DNA of 35,481 nt from a virus, in IMG/VR virus record IMGVR_UViG_3300030385_002032, positions 1 to 35,481 of that record. One strand, written 5' to 3'. Positions 7,657 to 26,028 of the stretch are shown piece by piece. The notes under the pieces were generated by a model. That model was not told the origin of the DNA. It worked only from the letters and a program-made list of their open reading frames with translations, and made no database searches. Each line of letters opens with the position of its first letter. Within the stretch, counting starts at the first letter, position 1. The position numbers and the translations under genes were made by a program.

Positions 7657-9114
7657 CTAACGCGCAGACATTGTGCCTACATTTATAAGTCTAATCCACT
7701 TCTTAGGAGCGAATAGGATGGGAGTCCCGTAGAGCAAGACCATCCACCTGTAAGCTGGCGACAACACAGCTAAATCCATCTTCATGAGTGGCATGAGTTG
7801 TCTAAAAGTCATAACCGAGGGGGTAAGCTCACCCACATATGCCGACGAAGTAAACGGAAGCGTCAAGTTCACATCATCCACAGTGGTCACCCCACTAGCA
7901 GTCTGCGAAGAAGCAGGAACCTTCAGAATCAAAGAGTGCAAAGCAGCAGCTGGCACAGAAACTGTAGAACTAGATCCTGCCATAGCAGCACTTCGATAGA
8001 TCTTGAAAAACTCAGGAGGATAAGAACCTATAGTCCCAGCATTCGTAATCGTAAGCCGCTGACAGTTGCCAGCAAGCACCTGAGCAGCACCCAAATCCGA
8101 CACAGCAACATTTGTCATCGGAGCCGACTCACCAAAGCGATTACAAGCAGTAACTATGTAACTATGACAAATGGCACCAACTGGAGCACCCTTAGCATGG
8201 TCACCAGTTGCCGTAGCAGTGGAATTACCAATAATAGAAGCAACAGCAGCTGGGGCACTAGCCGACGTAGCAGCAGCAGGAGGAGTCGGTCCCTGACGAA
8301 TAAACACGTCCGGGTTGAACTCAAGCACACCAGCCTGGGTGGCAATCGTCTGCACCGCGCTACCAATCTGACCGTTCACAGGAGCAGGCAGCTGAATACG
8401 CTCACGAGGATACAGAGTCTTGACTAGGTCACTCATCGAGCGAGTTCCAAGGAACACGTCGGTGGGAAAACCATAGTTCTCAATAACCTCATTAGCAGCT
8501 TCCTCAAGATCCGCCTCTTGAAGACTATTGCCTTCAAGGTCAATGATCATCGTGGAATCCACTAGAGCATCAAGACCGTCCCATTGCTCAGCCTCGCCGT
8601 CAAAGGCAAGAGAAGAGTCACCTTCAAAAAGATTACGCTCAACTTGCTCAAGCAACCAGAGAATACCATTCTGGTTCTCAAGCGCGATGAGGTCGCCATG
8701 CGCTGGATGCACAAGCGAAGCCTGATGGGTGACCTCACGGGTAGTTCCAAGGAACTTGACCAGCTGGGTACGACGAACATAACTACTATCCGATGAAGCA
8801 GGTAACTCACCTTCTTGAAGGAAGGGAGAATTCTGTCCACCATAATCACTAAGTTGATTGTACTCTTCGACAGTACTGTAAGCTGGGCTCTTAGGTACTT
8901 TCTTCCAAAACTTAATGTGTGACGCAGAGTAGGTTAGCACCTTAAGAGAAGCTTCTAAACTCTCCACTCTGAGTGCGGAACCACCCGTCTGGCTGCTGAC
9001 TTGATAGCCAGCCTCCAGAGCTTTGGACAGCTCTGCGATGTCCGATTCGGAACCAACACCAAACCCAGAAAGGCCGTTGTTGCTCCCTTGAAATGCGTTA
9101 AGACCAATTGTCAT
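7657..9114 (-). CDS. Major capsid protein, HK97 fold with Ig/FN3-like insertion
   Basis: This encodes 485 residues with an excellent ribosome binding site (AAGGAG, eight bases from ATG). The N-terminal 275 residues show the layout of a large-phage major capsid protein: STVEEYNQLSDYGG with FLQEGELPASSDSSYVRR (residues 80-114), LGTTREVTH (122-130), then an alpha-rich part with LLEQVERNLFEGD and FDGLDALVD-like spacing, and a P-domain-like segment with FLGTRSMSDL. Residues about 278-425 are an Ala/Ser/Thr-rich insertion with FN3-like motifs (YIVTACNRFGESAP, FFKIYRSA). The HK97-like sequence resumes at VGELTPSVMTF and ends with a short C-terminal arm. It directly follows scaffold and protease genes, as usual. 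The inserted domain would sit on the capsid surface. Confidence 0.85.
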   Translation of the reverse strand: MTIGLNAFQGSNNGLSGFGVGSESDIAELSKALEAGYQVSSQTGGSALRVESLEASLKVLTYSASHIKFWKKVPKSPAYSTVEEYNQLSDYGGQNSPFLQEGELPASSDSSYVRRTQLVKFLGTTREVTHQASLVHPAHGDLIALENQNGILWLLEQVERNLFEGDSSLAFDGEAEQWDGLDALVDSTMIIDLEGNSLQEADLEEAANEVIENYGFPTDVFLGTRSMSDLVKTLYPRERIQLPAPVNGQIGSAVQTIATQAGVLEFNPDVFIRQGPTPPAAATSASAPAAVASIIGNSTATATGDHAKGAPVGAICHSYIVTACNRFGESAPMTNVAVSDLGAAQVLAGNCQRLTITNAGTIGSYPPEFFKIYRSAAMAGSSSTVSVPAAALHSLILKVPASSQTASGVTTVDDVNLTLPFTSSAYVGELTPSVMTFRQLMPLMKMDLAVLSPAYRWMVLLYGTPILFAPKKWIRLINVGTMSAR

Positions 9115-9136: not shown

Positions 9137-10006
9137 CTAACGACCGTTTCTGTGAGCCACCATCTTGTCACGCAGCGGCGCGGGAAGATGACTCGTGGTT
9201 TCGTAACGGACAACTTCGGTAGCAGAACACAAACCCTTCTGCACCATGTCCACTAGCGTGTCGGAAATCTGGCTCTTACTGAGCTGATCGCCCGAATCAC
9301 CAGAGAACGACTTTTCAAGTGCACGCATATGGCTCTTAGGCCCACGTGCGGGTGACGACTCAACCTGCTCAATACGCTGAGCTTGAAGGGTAGTAACCTC
9401 TGCAAAGTTGGAAAGCGCAGACGCAAGGGACTTCTGGAAGTCTCCCTGGGACTCAGTTTCCTTGGAGAGAGCACTAAGGACACGCGACACAACGCGAGAT
9501 TCACTAGACGTAATGGCTTTACTCACTACATCTGCAAAATTCGTAAGAAAATCTGATACTTCAAATCCCTTACGAACAGCTTCGTTATCCTTAGCATGGT
9601 CGAAAAGAGACTTCATAGCCTCTTCCTCTACCTCTTCTTCCTCGTCATCCTCGTCATCGCCCTTACACATGCCAGCAGCCTTAGCCAACACCATCTCTTC
9701 AGCAGTGAGGGCTTCACCCTTCGCTAGCTTCGTAAACACAGACTTTGCCATCGCCGCAGCGCCGTTATAGTCCGTGCCATTCTCTTCGATGTTATCGCCG
9801 CCTGCGGCTTCTTGCTTACCACCTGGCCACTCGCCCCGTGCCGAGTCGCCTCCTACACACACTTGCGAAGCAGCAGCTTCACCAGCATCTTCTTCGACCT
9901 TAGTCGTAGAAGTACCGCGTGAAGAATGCCCCTTGGCAAGCTCCTGGATATCTGCCAACGCTTTCGCAAGCGCATCCGGCTCAATCATCTTGCTATTTTC
10001 ACTCAT
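9137..10006 (-). CDS. Probable scaffolding protein
   Basis: This encodes 289 residues with AAGGAG six bases before the ATG. It is very acidic and Ala/Lys/Glu-rich, with a low-complexity acidic run (residues about 110-130, DDEDDEEEEVEEEA), helical segments with coiled-coil character (residues 130-240) and a basic C-terminus with PAPLRDKMVAHRNGR. Length, composition and its place between the prohead protease and the major capsid gene match phage capsid scaffolds, which line the inside of the procapsid and are cleaved out by the protease. No sequence motif alone proves it; an internal virion protein is the alternative. Confidence 0.65.
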   Translation of the reverse strand: MSENSKMIEPDALAKALADIQELAKGHSSRGTSTTKVEEDAGEAAASQVCVGGDSARGEWPGGKQEAAGGDNIEENGTDYNGAAAMAKSVFTKLAKGEALTAEEMVLAKAAGMCKGDDEDDEEEEVEEEAMKSLFDHAKDNEAVRKGFEVSDFLTNFADVVSKAITSSESRVVSRVLSALSKETESQGDFQKSLASALSNFAEVTTLQAQRIEQVESSPARGPKSHMRALEKSFSGDSGDQLSKSQISDTLVDMVQKGLCSATEVVRYETTSHLPAPLRDKMVAHRNGR

Positions 10007-10015
10007 GAGTTCTCC

Positions 10016-10771
10016 TTATGAACCATACAAACAAAATGCAGCTTTAGCGAATGCCTCAGCCATTTCTTTCGTTAGTGACGCCTCTTGCAGAAGCGCAACA
10101 GTTTCGTCGAAGGTCAAACTCTTAGAAGTTCGATCTTCAATCTCTTCAGTGTGCAAGCTTTCCGCAACAAGCGGGCTTCCACTGGCCTGGAGGGCCTTCT
10201 CTTCATCCTCTTCTTCCATGTCATCACAATCGTCGTGGTCTTTCTTTAAATCCCACTCTTCAGTAGACAAAGACTTAGCAATTTGTGCCCAAGTCGAAGT
10301 ATTCACAGGGGATGGCGTAATCGCAACATCCTGAATCCAACACTCTTTAATAGTAGATCCCGCACGCCGCTTAACTTTACCTTGAATAGAGAAACCAATG
10401 CGACGACTAGAACTAGAGGAATCCAATGAATTCAACAATTCCCAAATGCTATCAGCTGTCTTGTGGTTTTTAAAAAGGAAACCCTTAACCCAAAGACCAT
10501 TAGCGGTAAGACGACACTCAGTAGGTTGTCCTACTTTGTTTGAAAATCCATCCTTATGGTCATTATTAAAGTACCCATTTTTCATAAAGTATGAAAAATC
10601 AATACCTTTTTGAGACACAACCTCGCCTTGAAGATCACGGGCATCCGTAGAAGCCACGCCCTGAATCCAGCGTTTTCCAGAATCAGACGCACCATCGTCA
10701 TCACCCTTAGTGACACGGAGCGCCTGTGCAGGCAGCCAAAAATTAAAGGTATCTTTATCTATCCAAGACAT
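10016..10771 (-). CDS. Prohead maturation protease (S78-like)
   Basis: This encodes 251 residues. The core has the pattern of caudoviral prohead proteases: WIQGVASTDARDLQGEVV (residues 35-52), FNNDHKDG with candidate catalytic His72, a strand with GLWVKGFLF, and RRIGFSIQGK with candidate nucleophile Ser128, then IQDVAITPSPVN. The C-terminal 90 residues are acidic and helical and may be a delivery or scaffold-like tail. The enzyme cleaves scaffold and capsid during maturation. The ATG follows a run of seven T residues and a terminator-like hairpin, with no visible ribosome binding site, so expression is probably controlled. It lies immediately before the scaffold candidate, as expected. Confidence 0.82.
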   Translation of the reverse strand: MSWIDKDTFNFWLPAQALRVTKGDDDGASDSGKRWIQGVASTDARDLQGEVVSQKGIDFSYFMKNGYFNNDHKDGFSNKVGQPTECRLTANGLWVKGFLFKNHKTADSIWELLNSLDSSSSSRRIGFSIQGKVKRRAGSTIKECWIQDVAITPSPVNTSTWAQIAKSLSTEEWDLKKDHDDCDDMEEEDEEKALQASGSPLVAESLHTEEIEDRTSKSLTFDETVALLQEASLTKEMAEAFAKAAFCLYGS

Positions 10772-13872: not shown

Positions 13873-14607
13873 TCAACCAAACACAGACTGTATTCTATAA
13901 TGCAAAATAAACTCTCGCACAACGTCTAAATGAATACTCAAACCTATATGCCACGGACCAGCTCTAGACACAACCCCAACAAGCTCGTTACGACTGTTCA
14001 GAACAGGACCACCTGAATTTCCAAAATACACTTGTGCGGAATGTTGCACATACAACACACCCCCACCCGCTCCTGCGTGTGACCGACGGGCCGCATTAGA
14101 CACAACGCCAGCAGTCAGACTCCAACCCATGCCTGCGGGGTGCCCCATTACCACAACATTCTCTCCAGGTAACGCAGCCACTGGAGACAAGTCTATTGAA
14201 GCATGCAAAAACACAGGAAATTCCCCAGGAGCAAGCGTAAGCAACGCCAAATCATTCTGTATGTCTAAAGCAGACACCACAAACATGTGCCAACGTGCGT
14301 TAGAAAAATCACCAGCAGTATCCACGTAATCTTGAAACGTGCCGATACGAACCTCTGTATTTGCTTCACCGATTTCCGTGCGGTGCGTCACACAATGTGC
14401 AGCCGTGAGAACTTCAGATCTAGATATAAAAGAACCAGTACAATAGATGCGATGCGCATCCGTAGGCGACCCAGGCACAGGAGCAACAAGAGCAGCAACC
14501 GAATGACTTAGGTATTCAACTGCTCTGGGAGTTCTAGTAAACTGGGGAGGGTTGCTTAGACAACCCGAAAAAAACAAAAAGAGGCAAAAAAATCCTAGCT
14601 TTTTCAA
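13873..14607 (-). CDS. Trypsin-like serine protease with lipoprotein signal
   Basis: This encodes 244 residues, starting at TTG 14607 with GGGAG six bases upstream. The N-terminus is MKKLGFFCLFLFFSGC: two Lys, a hydrophobic run and a near-lipobox (FSG-Cys16), indicating export and lipid attachment. The catalytic triad of the chymotrypsin/trypsin (S1) fold is complete: LTAAHC (His71), NDLALL (Asp119) and FGNSGGPV (Ser198). Cys56 and Cys72 flank the His as the usual disulfide pair. A typical C-terminal NELVGVVS strand follows. It probably acts outside the cytoplasm on a periplasmic or surface protein. Such an exported protease within a head operon is unusual; a lysis, superinfection or host-envelope role is possible. 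It has no known phage-specific signature. Confidence 0.8.
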   Translation of the reverse strand: MKKLGFFCLFLFFSGCLSNPPQFTRTPRAVEYLSHSVAALVAPVPGSPTDAHRIYCTGSFISRSEVLTAAHCVTHRTEIGEANTEVRIGTFQDYVDTAGDFSNARWHMFVVSALDIQNDLALLTLAPGEFPVFLHASIDLSPVAALPGENVVVMGHPAGMGWSLTAGVVSNAARRSHAGAGGGVLYVQHSAQVYFGNSGGPVLNSRNELVGVVSRAGPWHIGLSIHLDVVREFILHYRIQSVFG

Positions 14608-14691: not shown

Positions 14692-15192
14692 CTAAGAAAT
14701 AGTTTTGGAGCGACCAGGAACGCTGCTACCGCCAAAACCGGCATTATAATTAAGTTCCTCAGCCATCTGGGCACGAACTATTTTAGACACCAAAGCAGCC
14801 TCATCGTCCGTAACCTTAAGCAACGTACTTCTGACATGTGCCAACATGCCACCATCAACAAAAGCAAACTGCGTCGGGAACAGCACGCTAAGGATTGCCT
14901 CCTCCTGCGATGTCAGACCAACTCCTGTCTTCGCTTTTCTAATAGCATCCAGAACACAATGTTTGGCATAATCAAAGTCCAAACGCCCGTCAGGATACCT
15001 ACGAAATATTAGATTACCAGAAACACGATCATGCGGGGTACGATACTGCTGTACCGGAACATTGGGCAAATGCCCCTCTGCATGCTCTGTTAACTTATAG
15101 TCAGTTGTTCCCTTTTCTTCTGACTTGCTAAGGAGTTCTTTGTTGCGCTCAATGAACCTAACAGGCACACGAGGCAGATTTCCACTATTCAT
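14692..15192 (-). CDS. Unknown 166-residue protein
   Basis: The ATG overlaps the stop of the previous gene (ATGA). The N-terminal 70 residues are polar and look disordered (NSGNLPRVPVRFIERNKELL). Residues 75-150 are helical with DYAKHCVLDAIRKAK, TSQEEAILSVLFP and DDEAALVSKIVRAQMAEELN. The C-terminus is Gly/Ser-rich and basic. No motif is recognised. It belongs to the gene run that begins after the portal and ends before the exported protease, so a virion or assembly role is a guess. Confidence 0.4.
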   Translation of the reverse strand: MNSGNLPRVPVRFIERNKELLSKSEEKGTTDYKLTEHAEGHLPNVPVQQYRTPHDRVSGNLIFRRYPDGRLDFDYAKHCVLDAIRKAKTGVGLTSQEEAILSVLFPTQFAFVDGGMLAHVRSTLLKVTDDEAALVSKIVRAQMAEELNYNAGFGGSSVPGRSKTIS

Positions 15193-15587
15193 TCTTTATT
15201 CTCCAAATACAATCCAGTCTCTAACGACTTACGCGTTTGTTTGTCCTTTCTGGGAACAAACAAAGACCGAGAGCCAATACCACCAGCTGCTGGCCTAGTT
15301 TTCTTACTTTCTTTAGAAGTTTTGCCAGAAAGAGCCTCACCCTTCTTCTTTCCCGCTTCTGATTCTTTCTTTCCGCTACCTTTACTGTCTAGGTATGACT
15401 TGTACTCTTCATTAGTTTTAAAATAACGATACTGTGGAGACCCATCTTTGTCAGTACCCGTAACAACACGAGCTACAAAACTTCCACCGCGCATCTCACC
15501 GCGTGTTTTTTGACGAACCAGATGAACACTACGACGCTCAACAGCTCCAGCTTTCCGCACAGATTCTTGTTTTATAAACAGTTTCAT
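15189..15587 (-). CDS. Small basic Lys-rich protein
   Basis: I place the start at ATG 15587, overlapping the previous stop as ATGA; a TTG three codons further upstream is less likely. It encodes 132 residues, highly basic, with Lys/Ser/Gly-rich linker-like sequence (SGKKESEAGKKKGEALSGK, residues about 69-87) between a strand-rich N-terminal half (VVTGTDKDGSPQYRYFKTNE) and a basic C-terminal end. DNA-binding or internal virion packing is plausible from composition. No family is recognised. Confidence 0.4.
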   Translation of the reverse strand: MKLFIKQESVRKAGAVERRSVHLVRQKTRGEMRGGSFVARVVTGTDKDGSPQYRYFKTNEEYKSYLDSKGSGKKESEAGKKKGEALSGKTSKESKKTRPAAGGIGSRSLFVPRKDKQTRKSLETGLYLENKE

Positions 15588-16021
15588 CGGTTCCAAAGTT
15601 CCTTAGCTTCCTTATCTACAGAAGTTACTGTGCGAGCAACGGGTTCTTCGTAATCTCGCAGAGACACAGGAGACGTAAAAGCATGAATTCTACGAACAGG
15701 TACGGGCACAGTCTCGTGAGGTCGTGGAGGATGCTTATATCCAATCGACCCAACAGCTGCTTCATATGAAGCAGCCTGCGCAGCTTGTGCCGCCTGTGTC
15801 TTCTTCATCGAATTCAAGACGCCCTGTGTTTGAGCACACATTTGTTGCAATGTAACTACCGCTGCACTTTTTGACTTTGCCACAGATTGATCACCTTTCA
15901 TCTTCTTGAAGATCCCAACAATATAAGCGTAATCTTCTTCTCTACCTTGCTTAGAAGCTTGTTGCTTAGCCAAAGACCACAGTTTTTCGTCTCTTTGTGT
16001 AGTAACTAAATTTACAGGCAT
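15584..16021 (-). CDS. Unknown protein with short conserved helical N-terminus
   Basis: This encodes 145 residues. The N-terminal 42 residues contain LWSLAKQQASKQG and DYAYIVGIFKKMKG, resembling a short helical motif found at the ends of various phage and plasmid proteins (Trp/Ala-Lys helix, then aromatic-ValGlyIle-Phe-Lys-x-Met). A long Ala/Gln helix follows (KKTQAAQAAQAASYEAA), then a Pro-rich stretch and an acidic end. It is the first gene after a predicted promoter at 16051-16079. Its function is not known; virion assembly is inferred from its place next to the portal. Confidence 0.45.
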   Translation of the reverse strand: MPVNLVTTQRDEKLWSLAKQQASKQGREEDYAYIVGIFKKMKGDQSVAKSKSAAVVTLQQMCAQTQGVLNSMKKTQAAQAAQAASYEAAVGSIGYKHPPRPHETVPVPVRRIHAFTSPVSLRDYEEPVARTVTSVDKEAKELWNR

Positions 16022-16086: not shown

Positions 16087-17754
16087 TCACATAGTATCCG
16101 CATATTCTGGCTCCTCAGTTCCACCAGAATCCTGATCTTCCTCACCACCAGCTTGTTGTTGCTGCATCTGTTCCTGCTGCTGCTGCATAGCCTGTTGCTG
16201 CTTTTCTTGCATATCAATCTGGCGTTCTTGCAACTTGATCTGCTTAACCTGCATGTACGTCGGGTTCAATATATAATCCCCATCCGTCACATCGGGCAAA
16301 TCCTCCGCACGACGAATCTCGTTCAAGGTCATGTATGAGGCCACTTGCTCCTTACGCAGCTCGTGTTTCTCGTGCTCCGTGAGTTCATCCAACCCAACAA
16401 AGTCAAATACGAAGTGATCATCTATCTTAGAAATAACATTTTCATTGATCAGTTTCGCAATAAAACGCAGAAGAGGCTTTAAACCACGGTCTCTAGATGC
16501 CTTAAGCTTCCATTCAGCACTGCTTTCAAACAAAGGCTGCTGCTGAACACCACCCTTCAAATCAAAATTCACCTCAGCAGGGTCAATCAGAAACACGGCA
16601 GTAGTAATCTTAATCAAGTACTCCAACCACGCCCCATACTCCATCTCACGATTTGAAGGATGAAGATTTACCCAATCCAGTCCCTGATCAGCTTGGAATA
16701 TTGGAGTTTTCCAGGAGTTTTCAACCCCCTCAACATTAGCTCGCCACTGCCGACGAAGTCCTTCAAGTTGGTCTGGAGTTAGATTATCACCCCGAATATT
16801 CAAGATACCCTTGGGTGCACTCCCATTCACAAAGAATTTACGATTGTACTCCTCTGCGTATAAATGAGACGTAATAACAGTGATAAGCTGCTCTAGCTCA
16901 CTGTACCCATATCCCTGCACATAAATGTCTGTTCTAGGATTACGCACCCCAAAGCTTAATTCAGCCCTAGAATACACATTCTCAATTTGTCCATTCACTA
17001 CCTGCACGAACGCAGGCTTGTCCACACCCTTGCGATTGCATAAATCCAACAACTTAAATGGCGCGTCTCCCCTAGACCCTGAGTTAAACTCACGCCCATT
17101 CATAAGCGTAGAGCTATGCGAGTGCAGCCCAATATTGTTTAGTGTTTCTGGTACAGCAATACGCATTGTAGCAGCATCCACAGCCAAAAACTCAAAAGGA
17201 AGCCCACGGCGATCAGGTACAATTTCCACACACGCCTGGTCATAAATAAGACTATCTCTCACGATCTTTTTAAGAAACGTCTCAAAATCATCTCTAGGGA
17301 TATCACTGTGTTGGTTAGTTTCAGAAGATCCACAGCTGTAAATAAACTGCTCTAAATCCTGGATAAACTTGCGCTCGCCTTTAGTGGTCATGCGACCAGA
17401 GTCTTTATGCTTTACGGCATATCCAATAGACTTTGTTAGCCGGAACGGAGTGGAAAACTGTGCAACCTGATTGCACCTAGTATTAATAATCGCACCAACA
17501 ACACTCAACTGGTGAGGAATCTTCTTCAACGTATCATACGTCAAAGAAATATTTCTATCCTTGTAACCCATCGCGTATTGTATGGACAACGGATCTGTAT
17601 AAGCAGACCGTGGCGCATGCTTAGCCTTTACAGGGGAATACCTACCTTTAGCAATCTCATCCCGGACTACAACAGGCACTTGATACGTTTGGTTGTTCCA
17701 TTCAGTAACTTCGTCAACCCACTGATTAGAAGAATCATCTGACATCTTACTCAC
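16087..17754 (-). CDS. Portal protein (HK97-like)
   Basis: This encodes 555 residues, overlapping the preceding gene by eight bases. The order of motifs is that of HK97-type portals: a long N-terminal segment, NTRCNQVAQFSTPF (about residues 91-104), DDFETFLKKIVRDSLIYDQA, LPFEFLAVDAATMRI, GYGYSELEQLITVITSHLYA (about 284-303) leading to EEYNRKFFVNGSAPKGIL, LRRQWRANVEGVENSWKTPI, and EYLIKITTAVFLIDPAEVNF. It ends with a Gln-rich coiled-coil tail (EKQQQAMQQQQEQMQQQQ) and an acidic C-terminus. The portal forms the dodecameric DNA entry channel at one capsid vertex. The Gln-rich tail is longer than usual and may contact neighbours or scaffold. Confidence 0.88.
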   Translation of the reverse strand: MSKMSDDSSNQWVDEVTEWNNQTYQVPVVVRDEIAKGRYSPVKAKHAPRSAYTDPLSIQYAMGYKDRNISLTYDTLKKIPHQLSVVGAIINTRCNQVAQFSTPFRLTKSIGYAVKHKDSGRMTTKGERKFIQDLEQFIYSCGSSETNQHSDIPRDDFETFLKKIVRDSLIYDQACVEIVPDRRGLPFEFLAVDAATMRIAVPETLNNIGLHSHSSTLMNGREFNSGSRGDAPFKLLDLCNRKGVDKPAFVQVVNGQIENVYSRAELSFGVRNPRTDIYVQGYGYSELEQLITVITSHLYAEEYNRKFFVNGSAPKGILNIRGDNLTPDQLEGLRRQWRANVEGVENSWKTPIFQADQGLDWVNLHPSNREMEYGAWLEYLIKITTAVFLIDPAEVNFDLKGGVQQQPLFESSAEWKLKASRDRGLKPLLRFIAKLINENVISKIDDHFVFDFVGLDELTEHEKHELRKEQVASYMTLNEIRRAEDLPDVTDGDYILNPTYMQVKQIKLQERQIDMQEKQQQAMQQQQEQMQQQQAGGEEDQDSGGTEEPEYADTM

Positions 17755-18322
17755 CTAATTCCCGCACTGACTTTTGTAACTGTGTGCATAACCAATCATG
17801 AAACTTACCACGTTCTCTACCTGAGATACTCGCAAGGCCCTTCTTAATGTCTGTAACATCATATCCTAAGACCTCTGTCACGTACTGCTCTTCTGACGAC
17901 CTAGGTTTGTGTACTTCAGCTTGCTGTTCCAACTGTTGATTTAACGACTTCAAAAACTCTGTACACGCTGAATATACACTAACCTGAGAATCTACAACAT
18001 CAACAAGAAACGCCTTGTTTATCTCTTCTTCTTCCTCTTCATCTACCTCTTCCGTCTTTTTATCTTCCTTGGGAGTCACACCTCGGTCACGAGACAACTG
18101 CGCGTATTCTTTTCGCTCTTCCTCTAATTCATCATCTACAGCTTCTTCATTTCCACTATGCCACTCTTTGCCAACATCTTTACGGTCATACGCAGCACTA
18201 CCCCCAAGCACACCAATGGGTTGTTTTGCGTAGCTCTCAGCATACGAACGAGAACTGCGCCGTTCGTTAGGCGTTGTGACTCCAACAAACTGTGCTTTAT
18301 TTAAATCAATATACAAAAACAT
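17747..18322 (-). CDS. Acidic protein between MORN protein and portal
   Basis: This encodes 191 residues, overlapping the end of the giant MORN gene by 17 bases and the portal start by eight, so the three genes are one translational unit. It has a short strand-rich N-terminus (MFLYIDLNKAQFVGV), a highly acidic low-complexity middle (DDELEEERKEYAQL, EEVDEEEEEEINKAF) and a helical C-terminal half with coiled-coil character (CTEFLKSLNQQLEQQAEV) and a conserved-looking GRERGKFHDWLCTQLQK. The function is unknown; its tight coupling suggests a partner of the portal or of the MORN protein. Confidence 0.45.
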   Translation of the reverse strand: MFLYIDLNKAQFVGVTTPNERRSSRSYAESYAKQPIGVLGGSAAYDRKDVGKEWHSGNEEAVDDELEEERKEYAQLSRDRGVTPKEDKKTEEVDEEEEEEINKAFLVDVVDSQVSVYSACTEFLKSLNQQLEQQAEVHKPRSSEEQYVTEVLGYDVTDIKKGLASISGRERGKFHDWLCTQLQKSVRELGE

Positions 18323-21300
18323 GATGATTCCTATGGGGTAACTGCGAGGAGTCTAAGTACAACGACTGCGCCTTACTTACAGTTTTGTGGTGTGTGAAAG
18401 GATCTTTTGGCGATGCGACATATTTGCCCTTCTTGCCCTTCTCGCCTTTCGTCTTAACTGAAACTTTAGCATGAGCAGCAGCCAATGCTTCTTGTTTAGT
18501 GTTAAAGTGAGAAGCCTCTACCCTGCCAGCCTTGTTGTGTGCCCCGTGGTGTATCACAGCAGCATAATCACCGCTGGGGTCATTGGGTACGTGTACCACC
18601 GAAACGTAGTAGAACGCCGGATTACCACTATCATCCTTGCGGGTATGCGATTCCGCAAAAATACGATCTTTAGAAGACGAAATTGCCTTCGCATGCGCCT
18701 CTCGTACTGCATCAGAGGCCCGCATGAACCCCACCTTCTTCTTCGCAGCCTGTTGTTGCGTACCTTTTATCTTTGTGTCGCCCCACATAGTACTTTGGTC
18801 ATGCCACCGCTTGTCTTCAGTAAGACGGAAAACAGCACGCTTAGCTTTTTCGGCAGTGGGATAATACCCTTCTTTATACTTACCGCGAAAGGTTGTTCCT
18901 TTACCGTGCTTATTCTCTCCAACAACCTTATACCGGCGATTCTTTCCAGATCCAGAAGGAATAGCATGATATTGCAAAGTACTTCCAGCATGCTTCTTAT
19001 GATGCAAAACATCACCAGAAATAATACCACGCTTTTCTCGGGACGTAGAAAACGTATCACCAAGCTTACTAACTGCTTCCTTATACTGCTTGGTGTGTAC
19101 TCCTGCGTCTAGTTCTTTTTGGGTATGAGACTGTACTGTCAATTTCGCAGAAACATGGTGCTGCGCTAGCTCCTTATTTACTCTCGTATACCCTTCTTTA
19201 TCCTTCTTCTGTTTCACAATTTCAGACACACGCTTCTTAGCAGCTGTCTTAGTAGCATAGGGTGTGCTCTCTGTCTTAGACGTAGGACTCTCATCACCGT
19301 GATAACCAGAGTGCTCAGACACATACCAATGGTTACGAACTACATGAGCGTGCACATGATGGTACGAGGACTTACCACCCTTACCACTGGTAAGGTATGT
19401 ATGTTGCTCCGCTTTGGATTTGTCCGACGACAAGTGATCGCGATACCGCTGATGTAGTCCTTTTGTCTGATCGTCTGTTAACGCAGCAGGCTTAGAAGCC
19501 TTATTATCAGGAGCTTTAGTCTTAGCAGCAGCGGCATCAGGAGCAGAACGCTCTCCTGTTGGTGTTGGCTCGAACCTTCTGTCCTCAAAGTCAAAGGTTC
19601 CTTCAATACCGTCTTTAAATGTTACTTTATGCTTACCCTGAAAATTTCCGTTCTCGAACTTTCCTTCATACAGAGTGCCCTCTGTAGTTGTTAGCTTCCC
19701 TTGGCCGTGAAAATTTCCTTCCTCGAACTTTCCTTCATACAGAGTGCCATTAGTATGTGTTACCTTCCCCTCACCGTGGAGCTTTCCGTTCTCGAACTTT
19801 CCTTCACTCACGCCATCTGTAGTTGTACGCTTCCCCTCACCGTGGAGCTTTCCGTTCTCGAACTTTCCTTCATGCACGTCGCCAGCTGGATCTGTTAGCT
19901 TCCCCTCACGAAGCTTTCCGTTCTCGAACTTTCCTTCATACACATGGCCCTTGGACGACGTTACCTTCCCCTTGCCGTGAAGATCTCCTTCCTTAAACTT
20001 TCCTTCTCTCACAGCGCCCTTGGACGACGTTACCTTCCCATCACCGTGGAGCTTTCCTTCCTCAAACGCTCCTTCATACAGAGTGCCATTAGTATGTGTT
20101 ATCTTCCCTTGGCCGTGTAGCTTTCCTTCCTCAAACGCTCCTTCATGCACGTCGCCCTCTGGATCTGTTAGCTTCCCCTCACCATGAAGCTTTCCGTCCT
20201 TGAACTCCCCTTCTTCCACAACAATGCCCTTGGACGACGTTATCTTCCCCTCCTTACCATGAAGATACCCGTTCTCGAACTTTCCTTCCTCCACGGTGCC
20301 ATAATCCATTGTACGCTTCCCCTCACCGTGGAGCTTTCCGTTCTCGAACGCTCCTTCATACACATGGCCAGCTAGATATGTTTCCTTCCCTTGACCATGC
20401 AGCTTCCCGTCCTTGAAATCTCCTTCAGACACCACATAAGCTGTTGTTACCTTCCCCTCACCGTGGAGCTTTCCTTCCTCGAACTTTCCTTCATACAGAG
20501 TGCCCTCTGTTGGATCTGTTAGCTTCCCTTGGCCATGTAGCTTTCCTTCCTCGAACGTTCCTTCCATTGTCACAGTGCCCTTTGCATCTGTTATCGTCCC
20601 TTGACCGTGAAGCTTATCGTTCTCGAACTTTCCTTCATGCACCTCGCCATCAGGATGTGTTATCTTCCCTTGACCATGAAGAGATCCTCTCTTGAATTCC
20701 CCTTCATACACCTCGCCATTAAGATAGGTTCGCTTCCCCTCACCGTGGAGCTTTCCGTGCTCGAACGCTCCTTCATGCACGTCGCCAGCTTTAGTTGTTA
20801 TCGTCCCCTCACCCTGAAGCCATCCGTTCTTGAATTCCCCTTCATGCACAGTGCCATCTGTAGTTGTTATCGTCCCCTCACCGTGGAGCTTTGCGTTCTC
20901 GAACTTTCCTTCATACACAGTGCCCTCTGTAGCTGTTATCGTCCCCTCACGAAGCTTTCCGTTCTCGAACTTTCCTTCATAAGTGCCATCTGTAGCTGTT
21001 AGCTTCCCCTCACCGTGGAGCTTTCCGTTCTCGAACTTTCCTTCAGCCACAGTGCCATCAGCATCTGTTTTCTTCCCTGGACCGTGAGGCTGACCTTTGG
21101 CATTACGTTCTCCAACATGTGTCCCACCATCAGCCAGCTTATGTGTCTCGTCAGCAGCAGCGGCAGTAGGCTTAGCGGCAGTAGGCTTAGCGGCAGTAGG
21201 CTTAGCGGCAGTAGGCTTAGCAGCAGTAGGAGAAGCAGCAGGAGCAGCAGCGGCATCAGGAGCAGCAGAGGCATCAGGGGCAGCAGGAGCAGCAGCAGCG

Positions 21301-23510
21301 TCAGCAGGAGCAGCAGCTTGGGAAGCAGCAGGAGCAGCAGCGGCAGAAGCAGCATCAGGCTTAGTGTCAGCCGGTTCTAGCAACGGTTGCGTAGAAGTCG
21401 AGGAGTCAGGCACACCAGAAGCCGCAGGAGCAGGAGGCGTCGGAGCCCCCGTAGGCGTAACCTGTGCTGTATCCTCCTGCTCAGTACCAGGTGCTTGTGC
21501 TTCTGCATCCTTGTCCTGTTTAGAATCAGAATCCAATAGCGAGTGAAACTTTCGAGCTGCCGCACCAGCCACTACGCCCAAAGCACGCGCCCCACCTTCT
21601 GGTGACGCAATAGCAGCCCCAAACTGTTCGCCCACTCGCATAGCAGAGCTAAACGCAGCACGCCTACTCGCAGCCGACGGCGCAGCGGCAGCAGGAGCAT
21701 CTTCTGCAAATGGACTTTTGCCATGCTTGCCTGCCAACTTAGACAGTTGCCTAAGTTCGCTAACATGTTCCTTCGACGGAATAACAGATAGATCTGCATG
21801 TCCTCCAGAGTCAATCCCGTCAATAATACGATTTAATTGCGCTTTCTGCGCACTGGACAAACTAGCATCATTATCCAGATGACTCTTTATGTTGTCCACA
21901 AGTGTGGAAGCTCTGGTAGTGTGATCAGATAACTGTGCCTGCTCTATTGAAGTCTTCGGCTTAACACTCTCCCTAGCTTCTCTCTCCAACTGGTGTCTAG
22001 GCGCACCCAACGGACCACCAACACCCGAAAGAACGTCATCTATGCTAGGAGGAGCGTTCTTCTTATGTGCCGCAATAGCGCGTTTTGCCTCAAGAGCTGC
22101 ACCGTTGTGGGTCTTTACAGAAGCCTTAGCGTCAGCAAGTTTCTTTCCATCAGGAGAATCATCAAACGCTCTAAGCGCTGCCTCCTGCGCAATTGTTGCA
22201 GTATCCAAACTCATCGTACCGTCAGCAGACACCACCTTGCCCTTTTGAGCCTCTTTCAGCTGTGCTTCAAGTTTTGTTCTGTCGGAAGTCTGTTCATCGA
22301 GTTCTTTCGTGACAGACGCCACAGAACTATCCAATTTTTTCTTCCTGGCCTGTAGTTTGTCCCTCCTCCGCATTGCAGGTACGTCGTCACTTGCAGACAC
22401 GTTTTGCCTGAGTTTCTGTTTTACCTCAGCCTGCTGGGATACCAAGTCGTCTTTTTTATCCATCAAATCTTGATGTAAAGACGAATCTCGCAAACGAGAA
22501 TTTTCAGAGTCTAAAACTAACTGCACCTGTAACACGCGCTTTTTAGCGGCAGCAACATCCGCATCTTCTTTTTCAACCGCCGCAGAACGTGCTTTATCAC
22601 CAACACGTATTTCCTCTTTTGTAGCAGCAACAGTTTTCTTAGCCTCAGTATGAGCAGCCTCAAGAGCTTCCTGCTCCTCATCGTGAGCATCAGACAGAGC
22701 TTGTGCCGCTTGCACGGCTGCCTGCGTTTTCGCTTCATACGCCTCACCATGTTTTCGATATAAGTTATCAAGTTCGTTCTCATGTTCATGAAGTCGCGGA
22801 CCAAGCACTCGCTGAATATACGGATTACTGTCCTGTGAGATGTCCTGCAAGTTGGACACATGCTCATGCAGTGCGTTGAAACGCTCATCGCCAGACAACC
22901 CAGAAAGCTTATCTTCAAGCTTTTTGTTGGCTAACTGATGATGCATATCCGCTAACTTTGGGTTCTCCGGGTTGTCTGCGTCCGCGCCAGTATGGTGAGC
23001 AGCCAACAGCTCATGCAGCTCTGACTCCGCGTGCTCAAAATCCTCTTCACGAGGAGAATTTATATCAAACTTATCTTTGTTTGTCAGCTCCGACGCCAAC
23101 TGCGGATCTTTCACACTGTACAAATCAGCATACGCTGACCAGCCGCCTGACGTGGATAAAGCCGCTTTGCCTTCAGTTTCCTCCGACGAAAGAGACGGCG
23201 CAGCAGCAGCGACCATACGCATGCTCTTCAAACGACGATACCCGCCACCACTAGTTGGTTCCCAACCAACTCTGTTGGCCACAGAGGTTGATCCGTACTG
23301 TGCTGCACTTATGTAATCGTACATTTTCGACGATTGCGCAGGAGCACGAGCAGTCCCAACCTGCCCTGCACCTGAGCCACCACCAACCCCAGCAACGTTA
23401 GCCGAGCCACCACCCACAGGAGGCACAGTCGGGCCTCCATTCGCTTTACGCAAAAAATCCCTATATTTTAAGAATACAGGACGTAAATTAGGCGAGCACG
23501 GCTGGAGCAT
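18306..23510 (-). CDS. Giant MORN-repeat protein (1734 residues)
   Basis: The start ATG overlaps the previous stop (TAATG). By rough position: residues 1-110 Gly/Ala-rich; about 160-490 long coiled coil rich in Lys, Glu, Ala and Gln; 490-660 mixed helices; 660-790 an Ala/Pro/Ser low-complexity linker ending in KPTAA units; about 795-1315 some 22 MORN repeats of about 23 residues (typical unit YEGKFENGKLHGEGK); and 1345-1734 three related modules rich in His, Tyr and Lys (for example HAHVVRNHWYVSEHSG and YYVSVVHV). MORN repeats form extended beta rods that often bind lipids or proteins, mostly in eukaryotes and some bacteria. A virion-associated or host-membrane role is inferred from its placement next to the portal. 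No enzyme motif is seen, so a fibre-like, ejected or internal protein are all open. Confidence 0.75.
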   Translation of the reverse strand: MLQPCSPNLRPVFLKYRDFLRKANGGPTVPPVGGGSANVAGVGGGSGAGQVGTARAPAQSSKMYDYISAAQYGSTSVANRVGWEPTSGGGYRRLKSMRMVAAAAPSLSSEETEGKAALSTSGGWSAYADLYSVKDPQLASELTNKDKFDINSPREEDFEHAESELHELLAAHHTGADADNPENPKLADMHHQLANKKLEDKLSGLSGDERFNALHEHVSNLQDISQDSNPYIQRVLGPRLHEHENELDNLYRKHGEAYEAKTQAAVQAAQALSDAHDEEQEALEAAHTEAKKTVAATKEEIRVGDKARSAAVEKEDADVAAAKKRVLQVQLVLDSENSRLRDSSLHQDLMDKKDDLVSQQAEVKQKLRQNVSASDDVPAMRRRDKLQARKKKLDSSVASVTKELDEQTSDRTKLEAQLKEAQKGKVVSADGTMSLDTATIAQEAALRAFDDSPDGKKLADAKASVKTHNGAALEAKRAIAAHKKNAPPSIDDVLSGVGGPLGAPRHQLEREARESVKPKTSIEQAQLSDHTTRASTLVDNIKSHLDNDASLSSAQKAQLNRIIDGIDSGGHADLSVIPSKEHVSELRQLSKLAGKHGKSPFAEDAPAAAAPSAASRRAAFSSAMRVGEQFGAAIASPEGGARALGVVAGAAARKFHSLLDSDSKQDKDAEAQAPGTEQEDTAQVTPTGAPTPPAPAASGVPDSSTSTQPLLEPADTKPDAASAAAAPAASQAAAPADAAAAPAAPDASAAPDAAAAPAASPTAAKPTAAKPTAAKPTAAKPTAAAADETHKLADGGTHVGERNAKGQPHGPGKKTDADGTVAEGKFENGKLHGEGKLTATDGTYEGKFENGKLREGTITATEGTVYEGKFENAKLHGEGTITTTDGTVHEGEFKNGWLQGEGTITTKAGDVHEGAFEHGKLHGEGKRTYLNGEVYEGEFKRGSLHGQGKITHPDGEVHEGKFENDKLHGQGTITDAKGTVTMEGTFEEGKLHGQGKLTDPTEGTLYEGKFEEGKLHGEGKVTTAYVVSEGDFKDGKLHGQGKETYLAGHVYEGAFENGKLHGEGKRTMDYGTVEEGKFENGYLHGKEGKITSSKGIVVEEGEFKDGKLHGEGKLTDPEGDVHEGAFEEGKLHGQGKITHTNGTLYEGAFEEGKLHGDGKVTSSKGAVREGKFKEGDLHGKGKVTSSKGHVYEGKFENGKLREGKLTDPAGDVHEGKFENGKLHGEGKRTTTDGVSEGKFENGKLHGEGKVTHTNGTLYEGKFEEGNFHGQGKLTTTEGTLYEGKFENGNFQGKHKVTFKDGIEGTFDFEDRRFEPTPTGERSAPDAAAAKTKAPDNKASKPAALTDDQTKGLHQRYRDHLSSDKSKAEQHTYLTSGKGGKSSYHHVHAHVVRNHWYVSEHSGYHGDESPTSKTESTPYATKTAAKKRVSEIVKQKKDKEGYTRVNKELAQHHVSAKLTVQSHTQKELDAGVHTKQYKEAVSKLGDTFSTSREKRGIISGDVLHHKKHAGSTLQYHAIPSGSGKNRRYKVVGENKHGKGTTFRGKYKEGYYPTAEKAKRAVFRLTEDKRWHDQSTMWGDTKIKGTQQQAAKKKVGFMRASDAVREAHAKAISSSKDRIFAESHTRKDDSGNPAFYYVSVVHVPNDPSGDYAAVIHHGAHNKAGRVEASHFNTKQEALAAAHAKVSVKTKGEKGKKGKYVASPKDPFTHHKTVSKAQSLYLDSSQLPHRNHHVFVY
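19570..21125 (-). repeat. MORN-coding tandem repeat, about 69-bp period
   Basis: About 22 successive DNA units of near 69 bp encode the MORN array. On the plus strand a recurring core such as GAGCTTTCCGTTCTCGAACT is found in many units with small variations. Several units are shortened (around 19895-19925 and 20945-20970, lacking the second glycine step) and a few lengthened by one or two codons. The high DNA similarity implies recent duplication and loss of units. Confidence 0.8.
21161..21230 (-). repeat. 15-bp tandem repeat coding KPTAA linker
   Basis: The plus-strand unit CGGCAGTAGGCTTAG is repeated four times without a mismatch from 21161 to 21220, and a partial fifth copy follows. In the minus-strand gene it encodes a Lys-Pro-Thr-Ala-Ala linker just before the MORN rod. 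Its perfect copies suggest slippage-driven length variation. Confidence 0.85.
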
Positions 23511-24184
23511 TAACCAGCACCCTCGGTACTAAAGCGACCACCAGTAGGCCGTAGGTTTACACCTTCAGCAGCAGACGCCTCTTTGACCACAGCATCAGTC
23601 GCCACCGCTACAGTCTTAACCTTACGAGAAGCTCTCATGGCCGCAAGCTGCGTTCGTGCCTTCTGTGTTGACGCACGGCTACGCCTACCCTGTTGTGAAT
23701 AAGTCCTCGTTGTAACAGCTTGTAGCTCACTCTCAGGAACGACAGTCCCAATGCCAGGAGAAACCTCCTTTAAACGCGACTCATACTTAGCGTCCTGCGT
23801 AACACAGTATTCTAAAGTATCCTTCGATTTAGTAGAAATTTGGTATTTGGTGCCTGGAGAAAAATGAATCTCATCTCCTGGCAGAACAGAACGTTGGTAA
23901 GGCTCATCACAAGCAACACTAAGTTTAACCACACCGCTTCCTGCTAGAATGCGAATTACACGACTCTTAGCCCCATGCTTAACTACCGGCGTGCACGTAC
24001 CAGGTAACATAACTTCATAAAAAGTCTCAAAACCTTTACCAGAGTATCCCCGCACTCTGTACCCTGTGTCTGTCTTTTCACGTTCACCTACAACAATCAG
24101 CTCAGGTGCGTACTGACGCACAATATCCGAGTGCTTCTTAATTGTCCTAGGATTTGGCAGTATTCTTTGTCTTTTTCTTCGCAT
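23510..24184 (-). CDS. Cupin-fold protein with basic C-terminal tail
   Basis: This encodes 224 residues. A GGGGAT sequence lies about seven bases before the ATG. After a basic N-terminus (MRRKRQRILPNPRTIKK), residues 30-145 contain a small cupin-like beta-barrel (RVIRILAGSGVVKLSV, then VLPGDEIHFSPGTKYQIS and LEYCVTQDAKYESRL), lacking the canonical metal-binding His cluster. From residue 150 on the protein is low-complexity and basic (TRTYSQQGRRSRASTQKAR). The cupin probably acts structurally, as small cupins are found in phage decoration and assembly proteins. It is translationally coupled to the giant MORN gene by TAATG, so the two products may work together. Confidence 0.55.
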   Translation of the reverse strand: MRRKRQRILPNPRTIKKHSDIVRQYAPELIVVGEREKTDTGYRVRGYSGKGFETFYEVMLPGTCTPVVKHGAKSRVIRILAGSGVVKLSVACDEPYQRSVLPGDEIHFSPGTKYQISTKSKDTLEYCVTQDAKYESRLKEVSPGIGTVVPESELQAVTTRTYSQQGRRSRASTQKARTQLAAMRASRKVKTVAVATDAVVKEASAAEGVNLRPTGGRFSTEGAG

Positions 24185-24493: not shown

Positions 24494-25096
24494 TCAAGTC
24501 AAATCCAAGAGCTTTTTCACACAAACGGGTAACTTGTTGAAATCACAACGATTACTTCCGATAAGGTACGCAAAAAGAGCTTCTCTCTGTGGTGTTTGGG
24601 GTTTAGGATGCACCAACCTAATAACATCGACCAAACCAGGCACAGATCCAGTCGCAGCAACAAAGAGGTCTTCGTCTGACAAGTTCTCCAACCATTGTTT
24701 GACTAGTCGCTTAGGCGCAGAGCCCAAAGACTTACGTCCTGTTACACCGCTACGAAGGGTCAACACAAAGGACACCAACGTCTCTGCGGAATCTCCCACG
24801 CACTCTAAAAAGCACTTTTTAAATAAGTCCACATCCAAAGCAACAAGAACAGACAAAAAGAAACCCAACGTGCGAGGATCTTGGACTTCACAATATTTTG
24901 TCACCAGCACGTGCAGAAACTCAGGTGACACGTCTTTGCAATAAGACATTAGGAGAGCATGACAATCCAAAGGATTCTTAAACTCAACGTACTGAATTCT
25001 GTGGGTGGTCACATATAGAATTAACACCGTTTCCGCAGTGGAATAGTAGGAATCAGAACGCCGACGACGCACAACAAAGTTTGATTTATTCAACAT
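24494..25096 (-). CDS. Minimal TROVE/Ro60-like RNA-binding protein
   Basis: I choose ATG 25096 (MLNKSNFVV, 200 residues), since GGAA lies four bases upstream and a promoter just before it; a TTG start at 25174 would add 26 residues. The sequence follows the helical-repeat logic of the TROVE module. NFVVRRRRSDSYYS resembles the 'RFL..G...TYY' start. Near the end, SAPKRLVKQWLENLSDEDLF, then PGLVDVIRLVHPKP (residues 154-166) and ALFAYLIG, match the conserved 'R..W', 'DV.RL.HPKP' and 'L..Y..G' features. Ro60-family rings bind Y RNAs and misfolded RNAs in quality control. The protein is much shorter than the usual 500 residues and has no von Willebrand domain, so it is a core or truncated form. 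Confidence in family is moderate. Confidence 0.6.
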   Translation of the reverse strand: MLNKSNFVVRRRRSDSYYSTAETVLILYVTTHRIQYVEFKNPLDCHALLMSYCKDVSPEFLHVLVTKYCEVQDPRTLGFFLSVLVALDVDLFKKCFLECVGDSAETLVSFVLTLRSGVTGRKSLGSAPKRLVKQWLENLSDEDLFVAATGSVPGLVDVIRLVHPKPQTPQREALFAYLIGSNRCDFNKLPVCVKKLLDLT

Positions 25097-25108
25097 AGGG
25101 TTCCATAA

Positions 25109-25137
25109 ATAGTAAATGACCGACAATTTATTGTCAA
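25109..25137 (-). promoter_or_regulatory. Predicted promoter of the TROVE-like gene
   Basis: On the minus strand TTGACA (25132-25137, perfect), 17 bases, then TACTAT (25109-25114). The dyad GACAAT/ATTGTC overlaps the -35 box. The predicted start near 25103 would leave a leader of only about six bases before ATG 25096, so the mRNA may be nearly leaderless. If the longer TTG form is made, this element lies inside its coding sequence. Confidence 0.5.
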
Positions 25138-25183
25138 TCACCCAAAGGACAAATGACAACCCGCATTCGGTCAAAGATAAGTT

Positions 25184-25639
25184 TTAGTCTTTTGACGAGA
25201 TAACTTGATGCAAAGACTGCATCTGCACTCTCGTGTTTTCAATTCTATTAGCTAGACGACGAAATCCCTTCACCACAACCGAGGGAACAACATTTCCCTC
25301 AAGACCAGCAAAGGAATCAGCAATAGTTCGCAACATTGCAGGAGACGTAGCAAACGCCTTGTCTGCTAAAAACAAACAGGCCGCAGCTAACTCCCCATTA
25401 TACGCATCTATAAGGTTCTCCAGAACATTACAGTCAGGAACGTCAGGAACTACCGCTCCTTGATCACGAAACAAGTTATTCAAAGCTTGCGTGAACATAA
25501 TACAATCAATAGCCACATCAATTGCATCCTCATGTTCTGTGGAAGTTGTCTCAATAGCTTCTAATGCCGCAACAACATCATCAAACTTTATATTCATGTC
25601 TTCGGGCACTTTCTGGAATACCGTCGCCAGGCTCTCCAA
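25184..25639 (-). CDS. Unknown helical protein in repair-like cluster
   Basis: This encodes 151 residues, overlapping the SprT-like gene end by 46 bases. It is predicted mainly helical and acidic in the N-terminal half (DDVVAALEAIETTSTEHEDA) with a Cys near 46 and a later pair of Cys residues; the C-terminus is helical and basic (VVKGFRRLANRIENTRVQM). No signal peptide or motif is seen. Coupling to the peptidase suggests a partner, but this is inference. Confidence 0.4.
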   Translation of the reverse strand: MESLATVFQKVPEDMNIKFDDVVAALEAIETTSTEHEDAIDVAIDCIMFTQALNNLFRDQGAVVPDVPDCNVLENLIDAYNGELAAACLFLADKAFATSPAMLRTIADSFAGLEGNVVPSVVVKGFRRLANRIENTRVQMQSLHQVISSKD

Positions 25640-26028
25640 CGGTCAACAACTTTAAACAACGCCTCTTCTTCATAATCAATCGCCCTCTGATAATCTGCGT
25701 GTTTCATTTCTAAACAAGTGAATCTGTCACTATGGGGGTCTGACTTTCCTTCACGTGTAAACTGTTGAGGGCCTAAAAGTAAGTGAAGCATCTCATGATA
25801 AATAACAAAACGTAAAAACCAAACAGGAATCGCCACATCCTGGAGGACTGTGTTCACACGTATAAAACGTTCTGTCAGTTCACACACAGCCAATGTCACG
25901 CCAGATTTTCCACTAATAGACATGTGACGCCATCCAATACCACCACACACCATCCCACCAAAGTGTGTTTTGTTTATGCTATCGAACAAGCGTAATAAAT
26001 TCCGCTCCTTTACTTTTGGAGGTTTCAC
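25594..26028 (-). CDS. SprT-like zinc metallopeptidase
   Basis: This encodes 144 residues. The zinc signature HEMLH is at residues 78-82 (His78, Glu79, His82), preceded by a strand-like AIPVWFLRFVIY, and followed by GPQQFTREGKSDPHS with a candidate third ligand His99 and then the conserved-looking FTCLEMKHADYQRA. Length and order agree with SprT/Spartan-like peptidase cores, which in cellular forms degrade DNA-protein crosslinks. It overlaps the phosphoesterase gene by ATGA. A phage role in removing DNA-bound proteins is plausible, but a different substrate cannot be excluded. Confidence 0.78.
   Translation of the reverse strand: MKPPKVKERNLLRLFDSINKTHFGGMVCGGIGWRHMSISGKSGVTLAVCELTERFIRVNTVLQDVAIPVWFLRFVIYHEMLHLLLGPQQFTREGKSDPHSDRFTCLEMKHADYQRAIDYEEEALFKVVDRWRAWRRYSRKCPKT

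Follow-up and report, generated by a model that had tools for sequence, protein, structure and literature searches.

The window analysed here is the whole of a 35,481-base IMG/VR virus fragment (IMGVR_UViG_3300030385_002032) from an uncultured relative of phage SPO1. Its minus strand carries an SPO1-type head module, with genes for the portal, the head maturation protease, the scaffold and the major capsid protein and, upstream of the portal, an open reading frame (ORF) for a giant protein with MORN repeats, hereafter the MORN protein, which is our subject (Table 1). A previous, sequence-only reading had described a 1734-residue ORF, coupled to a ‘cupin gene’ on one side and, through an acidic gene, to the portal on the other. 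The ORF is real: it begins with ATG preceded by GAGG and is translationally coupled to both neighbours, sharing TAATG at its start with the stop codon of the cupin-like gene and 17 nucleotides (nt) at its end with the acidic gene. The portal is also as described. The cupin identity fared less well than the coupling, since Pfam and PHROG profile searches with the cupin-like gene gave no match.

The Ala/Pro linker and the roughly 22 MORN repeats reported in that reading were both recovered. The array scores 203.3 bits with the Pfam MORN profile (PF02493, E=2.9e-62, cutoff 22.5), which places it in the family; in all it has 21–22 units, of which 18 are matched individually, and the period analysis gives 21 regular units of 21–25 amino acids (aa) each at aa 821–1300, plus degenerate flanking units. 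At the DNA level the units are up to 95% identical and show a higher-order period of 486 nt, which suggests that the array expanded recently. The array is acidic (-23) and the C-terminal region basic (+33), and the Gly-zipper segment, the one lead towards membrane binding, is weak, with a maximum 19-residue hydropathy of 0.96. A Pfam scan of the ORF detected no Phage_Mu_F domain.

Related uncultured phage records, designated by L-numbers, were obtained from an IMG/VR search with the portal. The gene order cupin-like/long variable protein/acidic/portal is common to at least 21 related viruses. Their long proteins, of about 330 to 1015 aa, are related or syntenic to the MORN protein and have the same N-terminal peptide; several share its GW..GG(W/Y)RR module, and a Gly-zipper segment ending in GHHLL is common to both. 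The helical module at aa 516–600 is matched by blastp with values up to 2.7e-13 (L002), and the N-terminal 690 aa by phmmer with values up to 3.9e-20 (L047). Judged by core homology and gene order, the MORN protein belongs to this clade's family of portal-upstream long proteins, an assignment that we regard, like that of the array itself, as certain. Long and acidic proteins form one polypeptide in L002, L003, L007, L008, L018, L046/L048 and L051, so they probably act together, and the MORN and C-terminal modules occupy exactly the point at which, in the relatives, the Gly-zipper gives way to the acidic part. No MORN repeats were found in 50 related virus records, which bears out the claim that the architecture is unusual in phages; IMG/VR scans with the array and with the C-terminal modules gave no relative, and Pfam searches of 21 related long proteins returned no domain besides one weak coiled-coil-type match. 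Described phages have other neighbours upstream of related portals and the cupin-like/long/acidic trio was not found among them, the INPHARED set giving no match for the cupin-like or the acidic gene. A search for the host among 84,980 genomes of bacteria and archaea gave no relative of the portal. The portal gene of L017 (8528–11512) has an intein-like insertion of about 440 aa, and the portals of L065, L066 and L068 are likewise lengthened, possibly by intein-like sequences.

Table 1. Features of the MORN protein, its neighbours in the window and the MuF-kinase genes of relatives (arrows mark proposed cleavage sites; L-numbered positions refer to those records)
Feature	Position	Strand	Basis
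MORN protein, 1734 aa	18306..23510	-	ORF; Pfam MORN 203.3 bits
N-terminal propeptide, aa 1-22 (..VFLKYRDFLRK↓A), proposed site K22↓A23	23445..23510	-	motif statistics
Small GWEPTSGGGYRR module, aa 62-100	23211..23327	-	also in relatives' long proteins and L001 MuF-kinase protein
Ala/Glu/Lys-rich, probably helical region, aa 150-515	21966..23063	-	composition alone
Conserved helical module, aa 516-600, common to relatives (1-2 copies there)	21711..21965	-	blastp, phmmer
Gly-zipper segment, aa 615-662 (GEQFGAAIASPEGGARALGVVAGAAARKFHSLL), conserved in relatives (..GHHLL)	21525..21668	-	sequence comparison
Ala/Pro-rich linker with KPTAA tandem repeat, aa 666-790	21141..21515	-	repeat analysis
MORN array, aa 796-1323	19542..21125	-	Pfam; unit period
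C-terminal module A, aa 1344-1455, WGR-like predicted fold	19146..19481	-	AF2 (AlphaFold2), Foldseek
C-terminal module B, aa 1456-1591	18738..19145	-	low-confidence model
C-terminal module C, aa 1592-1713, WGR-like	18372..18737	-	weak Pfam match, Foldseek
C-terminal propeptide, aa 1714-1734 (K↓AQSLYLDSS..), proposed site K1713↓A1714	18309..18371	-	resembles relatives' MuF tails
Cupin-like gene, conserved upstream neighbour of the MORN ORF	23510..24184	-	alignment with relatives
Acidic protein, N-terminal tag LYIDLNK↓A	17747..18322	-	one polypeptide with the long protein in 7 or more relatives
Portal protein	16087..17754	-	phrog_12 180 bits; 43% to SPO1 gp3.1
135-aa protein; family LY-tagged at both termini	15189..15596	-	tag/motif statistics
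Head maturation protease, proposed cutter	10016..10771	-	phrog_1028 185.6 bits
Scaffold, 7 motif sites vs 1.1 expected	9137..10006	-	phrog_15087
Major capsid protein, site LSK31↓A32	7657..9114	-	Pfam/PHROG profile matches; motif
MuF-kinase fusions	L018 16550-19330; L001 14218-16509; L003 10664-13987; L044 14420-17149

Entry into a procapsid of this type exposes proteins to cutting by the maturation protease. A short motif, [LIVMF]xK↓[SAG], links the MORN protein to the putative substrates of the head maturation protease. In the scaffold family (28 scaffolds) it occurs 256 times against 27 expected (9.5-fold, z=46, counted with S/A), Lys alone being enriched at P1, besides rare Cys and Trp counts, with S, G and A next; the SPO1 scaffold gp3.3 has 11 sites against about 1.2 expected. 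The motif is enriched 2.5–6x in the protease, acidic, 364, 166, 104, 393 and 135 families, and shows no enrichment in tail proteins, the cupin-like gene and the metallophosphoesterase. A site lies within the first 40 aa of all 18 major capsid proteins tested, and SPO1 has LNK↓A in the N-terminal region of its own. In the Protein Data Bank, chain 9row_B (439 aa) equals 5lii_P (463 aa) minus the first 24 residues, thus starting after VVK24↓S25, in a chain sequence that was chosen by the depositors. A site within the first 45 aa is present in every one of the 21 long proteins (expectation 4.0). Just two sites, K22↓A23 and K1713↓A1714, occur in the 1734 aa of the MORN protein, where 8.7 are expected (P(≤2)=0.006), and it so carries at both ends the terminal site of an SPO1-like prohead-protease substrate. 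Nothing on SPO1-type cleavage sites or tags was found in open-access papers, older subscription papers being outside the scope of the search. The trypsin family is marginally enriched in the motif (1.6x, z=1.1); the trypsin-like protease of the head module in the window (13873–14607; Pfam Trypsin_2, 80 bits) is distinct from the maturation protease and has a lipoprotein-type signal peptide, LFFSGC, kept in relatives as LALGC and LVLCSC.

The ends predicted for removal also contain an LY-type element (LYL, LYI, LFV). At the N terminus this tag is carried by 77% of the long proteins, 75% of the 135 family and 55% of the acidic proteins, whereas among other plus-strand ORFs the rate is 4% and among 702 antisense ORFs a single one has it; at the C terminus it occurs in 46% of the 135 family as well, and in six of the seven MuF proteins having a C-terminal site. 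Both ends of the MORN protein carry the tag, the N-terminal one as a loose match (VFL..FLRK↓A) and the C-terminal one as VSK↓AQSLYLDSS. When the SPO1 proteins were scanned (NC_011421.1), only the ParB-like gp2.12 (24642–25265; MDLHIDLNK↓S) and gp5.3 (39026–39442; LLVIDIEK↓G), whose genes are near those of the terminase and the portal, were found to carry the N-terminal tag. Proteins of about 450 aa that start with MELYIDLGK↓A and are gp5.3-like by eye occur in L087, L090 and L091. An ORF of 2348 aa in L061 (2–7048) has the same C-terminal tag (KKSLWLYVTC) and may encode another giant packaged protein.

The three C-terminal modules had been described as related. Compared by BLAST, modules A, B and C show no detectable relation to one another; A and C, independently, look similar to the WGR fold in models of low confidence. 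In the AF2 model module A reaches a local predicted local distance difference test (pLDDT) score of 70–84, and Foldseek matched the PARP1 WGR domain with a probability of 1.00 and a weak E-value, the query stretch being taken as module A because good local confidence is confined to it. Module C, modelled separately, matched the WGR domains of PARP1/2/3 with probabilities of 0.9–0.99. These fold matches for modules A and C are to be read with model pLDDT values of 44–55 and E-values of 0.03–0.5. With the Pfam WGR profile (PF05406) module C scores 19.0 bits (E=0.0015), under the cutoff of 22, and modules A and B give no match; with a small home-made WGR profile module C comes next after a true WGR gene, below significance. 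The W-G-R motif itself is not retained. Standard WGR domains were thus rejected on the Pfam score, and a dsRNA-binding fold, suggested for module A by its helix/strand order, was set aside as Foldseek gave WGR the higher probability. From the models, modules A and C look WGR-like, and the chance that the C-terminal end binds DNA in the WGR manner may be put at about even. The combination of a tagged head protein with MORN and WGR-like parts is absent from all sequenced relatives. Stand-alone WGR genes above the Pfam cutoff are present in three large related virus records (L101, L102, L103), outside the head module.

Other cargo may be carried by the head modules of relatives: these encode a MuF-like protein joined to a domain that resembles PI3/PI4 kinases (motif HxDRHxxN..IDHGxAF) and scores up to 39.6 bits with a Pfam kinase profile, where the cutoff is 27.1. 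The MuF part was recognised mainly by eye from its motif (Pfam Phage_Mu_F is weak, 17.8 bits in L006). Some of these proteins have C-terminal tags; in the window, the MuF gene is absent from the corresponding place. The protein of L001 has the GWE.TS.GGYR module of the MORN protein (weak, E=0.036), and this shared module and the MuF-kinase fusions support the idea of a head operon with swappable cargo. We may go one step further and propose, tentatively and at slightly less than even chances, that a terminal tag of the SPO1 lineage (an LY element plus [LIVMF]xK↓[SAG] cleavage, at either end) loads varied head cargo: ParB-like proteins, MuF-kinase fusions and, in the window virus, a MORN rod whose three WGR-like modules would bind DNA and which would be delivered into the host with the genome.

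For the MORN protein itself, the best explanation as a whole is that of a procapsid-internal, double-trimmed, ejected cargo protein of an SPO1-like phage, which we consider reasonably probable. Location inside the procapsid, taken on its own, is quite likely: because both ends carry probable cutting and packaging tags, the protein is probably packed in the head. From the computed features we infer the following course. The terminal LY peptides would direct the protein into the procapsid core, where the head maturation protease would trim it at its two sites, leaving a mature protein of roughly 1690 residues. The core (helical region and Gly-zipper) would be the lineage's portal-proximal internal protein and the partner of the acidic protein, while the flexible linker, the acidic MORN rod and the basic WGR-like modules would be cargo added in the window virus. 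The protein would then leave the head with the DNA, the WGR-like end binding nucleic acid and the MORN rod binding a host partner, surface or membrane. The sequence-only reading had offered an ‘ejected membrane-binding protein’ among its options; ejection is the best supported of these, given maturation sites and tags at both ends.

Known systems provide parallels. The core proteins of T4 undergo many cuts and its packaged proteins lose short terminal propeptides, which in the internal proteins are capsid-targeting sequences that target them into the head; the enzyme Alt, which is packaged and ejected, loses a piece at either end (PMC9026906). Like IPI-III and Alt, the MORN protein has short predicted terminal propeptides and a targeting-like element beside a prohead-protease site, with the bulk spared; its predicted sites match the pattern of Alt, and the T4 internal proteins are likewise variable, host-facing cargo. 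However, gp21 of T4 cuts at LxE rather than [LIVMF]xK↓[SAG], and here the tags are also C-terminal and the cargo consists of MORN and WGR-like parts. Sequence homology to these T4 proteins was neither sought nor seen. The ejection proteins of phiKZ/SPN3US are likewise large, head-internal and prohead-protease-processed, but they are cut at AxE, belong to another phage lineage and have mostly long propeptides, with no MORN reported (PMC10052503). MuF polymorphic toxin/effector fusions also attach variable C-terminal cargo to a portal-proximal head protein, from which the MORN protein differs in having no MuF domain. In SPO1, gp2.12 and gp5.3, the latter encoded directly upstream of the portal, have the same N-terminal tag as the head-module proteins; they are much smaller and without MORN, and the likeness shown is in the tag. 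MORN repeats are found in phage genomes in phrog_7324 and in a Helicobacter equorum prophage (BK070118), whose protein is, however, of 399 aa and encoded in a non-structural region, with no head-module context.

Several points weigh against ejected cargo. The motif is short, with 1–2 chance sites per average protein, start codons are predicted, and at the N terminus of the MORN protein the LY element (VFL) fits loosely. Some of the long proteins in the comparison are distant and were chosen in part for the position of their genes. The WGR match is under the Pfam cutoff and both structure models are of low confidence. A terminal site alone would be compatible with a shell or vertex location, since mature capsid shell proteins are also cut, and an ‘internal’ location does not imply ‘ejected’.

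This last point leads to the first alternative, rather unlikely in our view: a structural or core protein internal to the procapsid, which would aid assembly at the portal (head size, DNA organisation), would be retained or largely lost afterwards and would have no effector role. It would fit the invariant portal-adjoining position, the fusion to the acidic portal neighbour in relatives and the helical core of low complexity, and a separate scaffold gene exists. Yet scaffold and core proteins of this lineage are many-sited while the MORN protein has just two terminal sites, and relatives assemble without MORN and WGR-like domains, since all of them lack both. Another possibility, which we think improbable, is that the protein decorates the head or forms a fibre on its outside, with the repeats as a rod; a head fibre was also among the suggestions of the sequence-only reading. 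MORN arrays do form extended rods, the gene is in the head module, and cleavage also affects the outer shell proteins of such phages. Such a role is disfavoured by processing of the scaffold/internal-protein type, with a terminal tag common to internal-type head-module proteins and trimming at both ends as in T4 Alt, and by the Gly-zipper core and the lack of any recognised head-binding domain. Very improbable is an origin of the MORN/WGR part as an assembly chimera or decayed insertion, in spite of its uniqueness among relatives and the proneness of repeats to misassembly (PMC9238414), because the frame is a single intact one of 1734 codons that overlaps the adjoining gene at either end, and a C-terminal tag of the lineage type lies beyond the WGR-like modules; the repeat number itself may still be collapsed or expanded. 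The nucleus- or shell-like factor of the earlier reading, or a membrane-scaffolding factor in the infected cell, found no support and is equally remote: the protein is large, with low-complexity regions, and some MORN proteins bind membranes, but it is encoded in a head operon, no known phage-nucleus gene was seen in the window and prohead-protease sites at both termini would be needless.

Two further genes of the window were noted. A 226-aa gene (24494–25174) has a relative in L006 (2613–4223) that encodes a Ro60-like protein of 536 aa (TROVE plus vWA), and a gene upstream of the head module (25594–26028) encodes an SprT-like metalloprotease at 21.5 bits, slightly below the cutoff.

If the interpretation of the MORN protein as ejected head cargo is correct, the protein would exemplify a packaging code, comparable to the capsid-targeting system of T4, in the large SPO1-like group with its Staphylococcus and Listeria therapy phages. 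Such a code would be directly testable in SPO1 with Bacillus subtilis, and head-internal and ejected proteins would become predictable from sequence in many uncultured phages. A head-borne cargo of MORN and WGR-like parts would then be a new type of phage-delivered protein.

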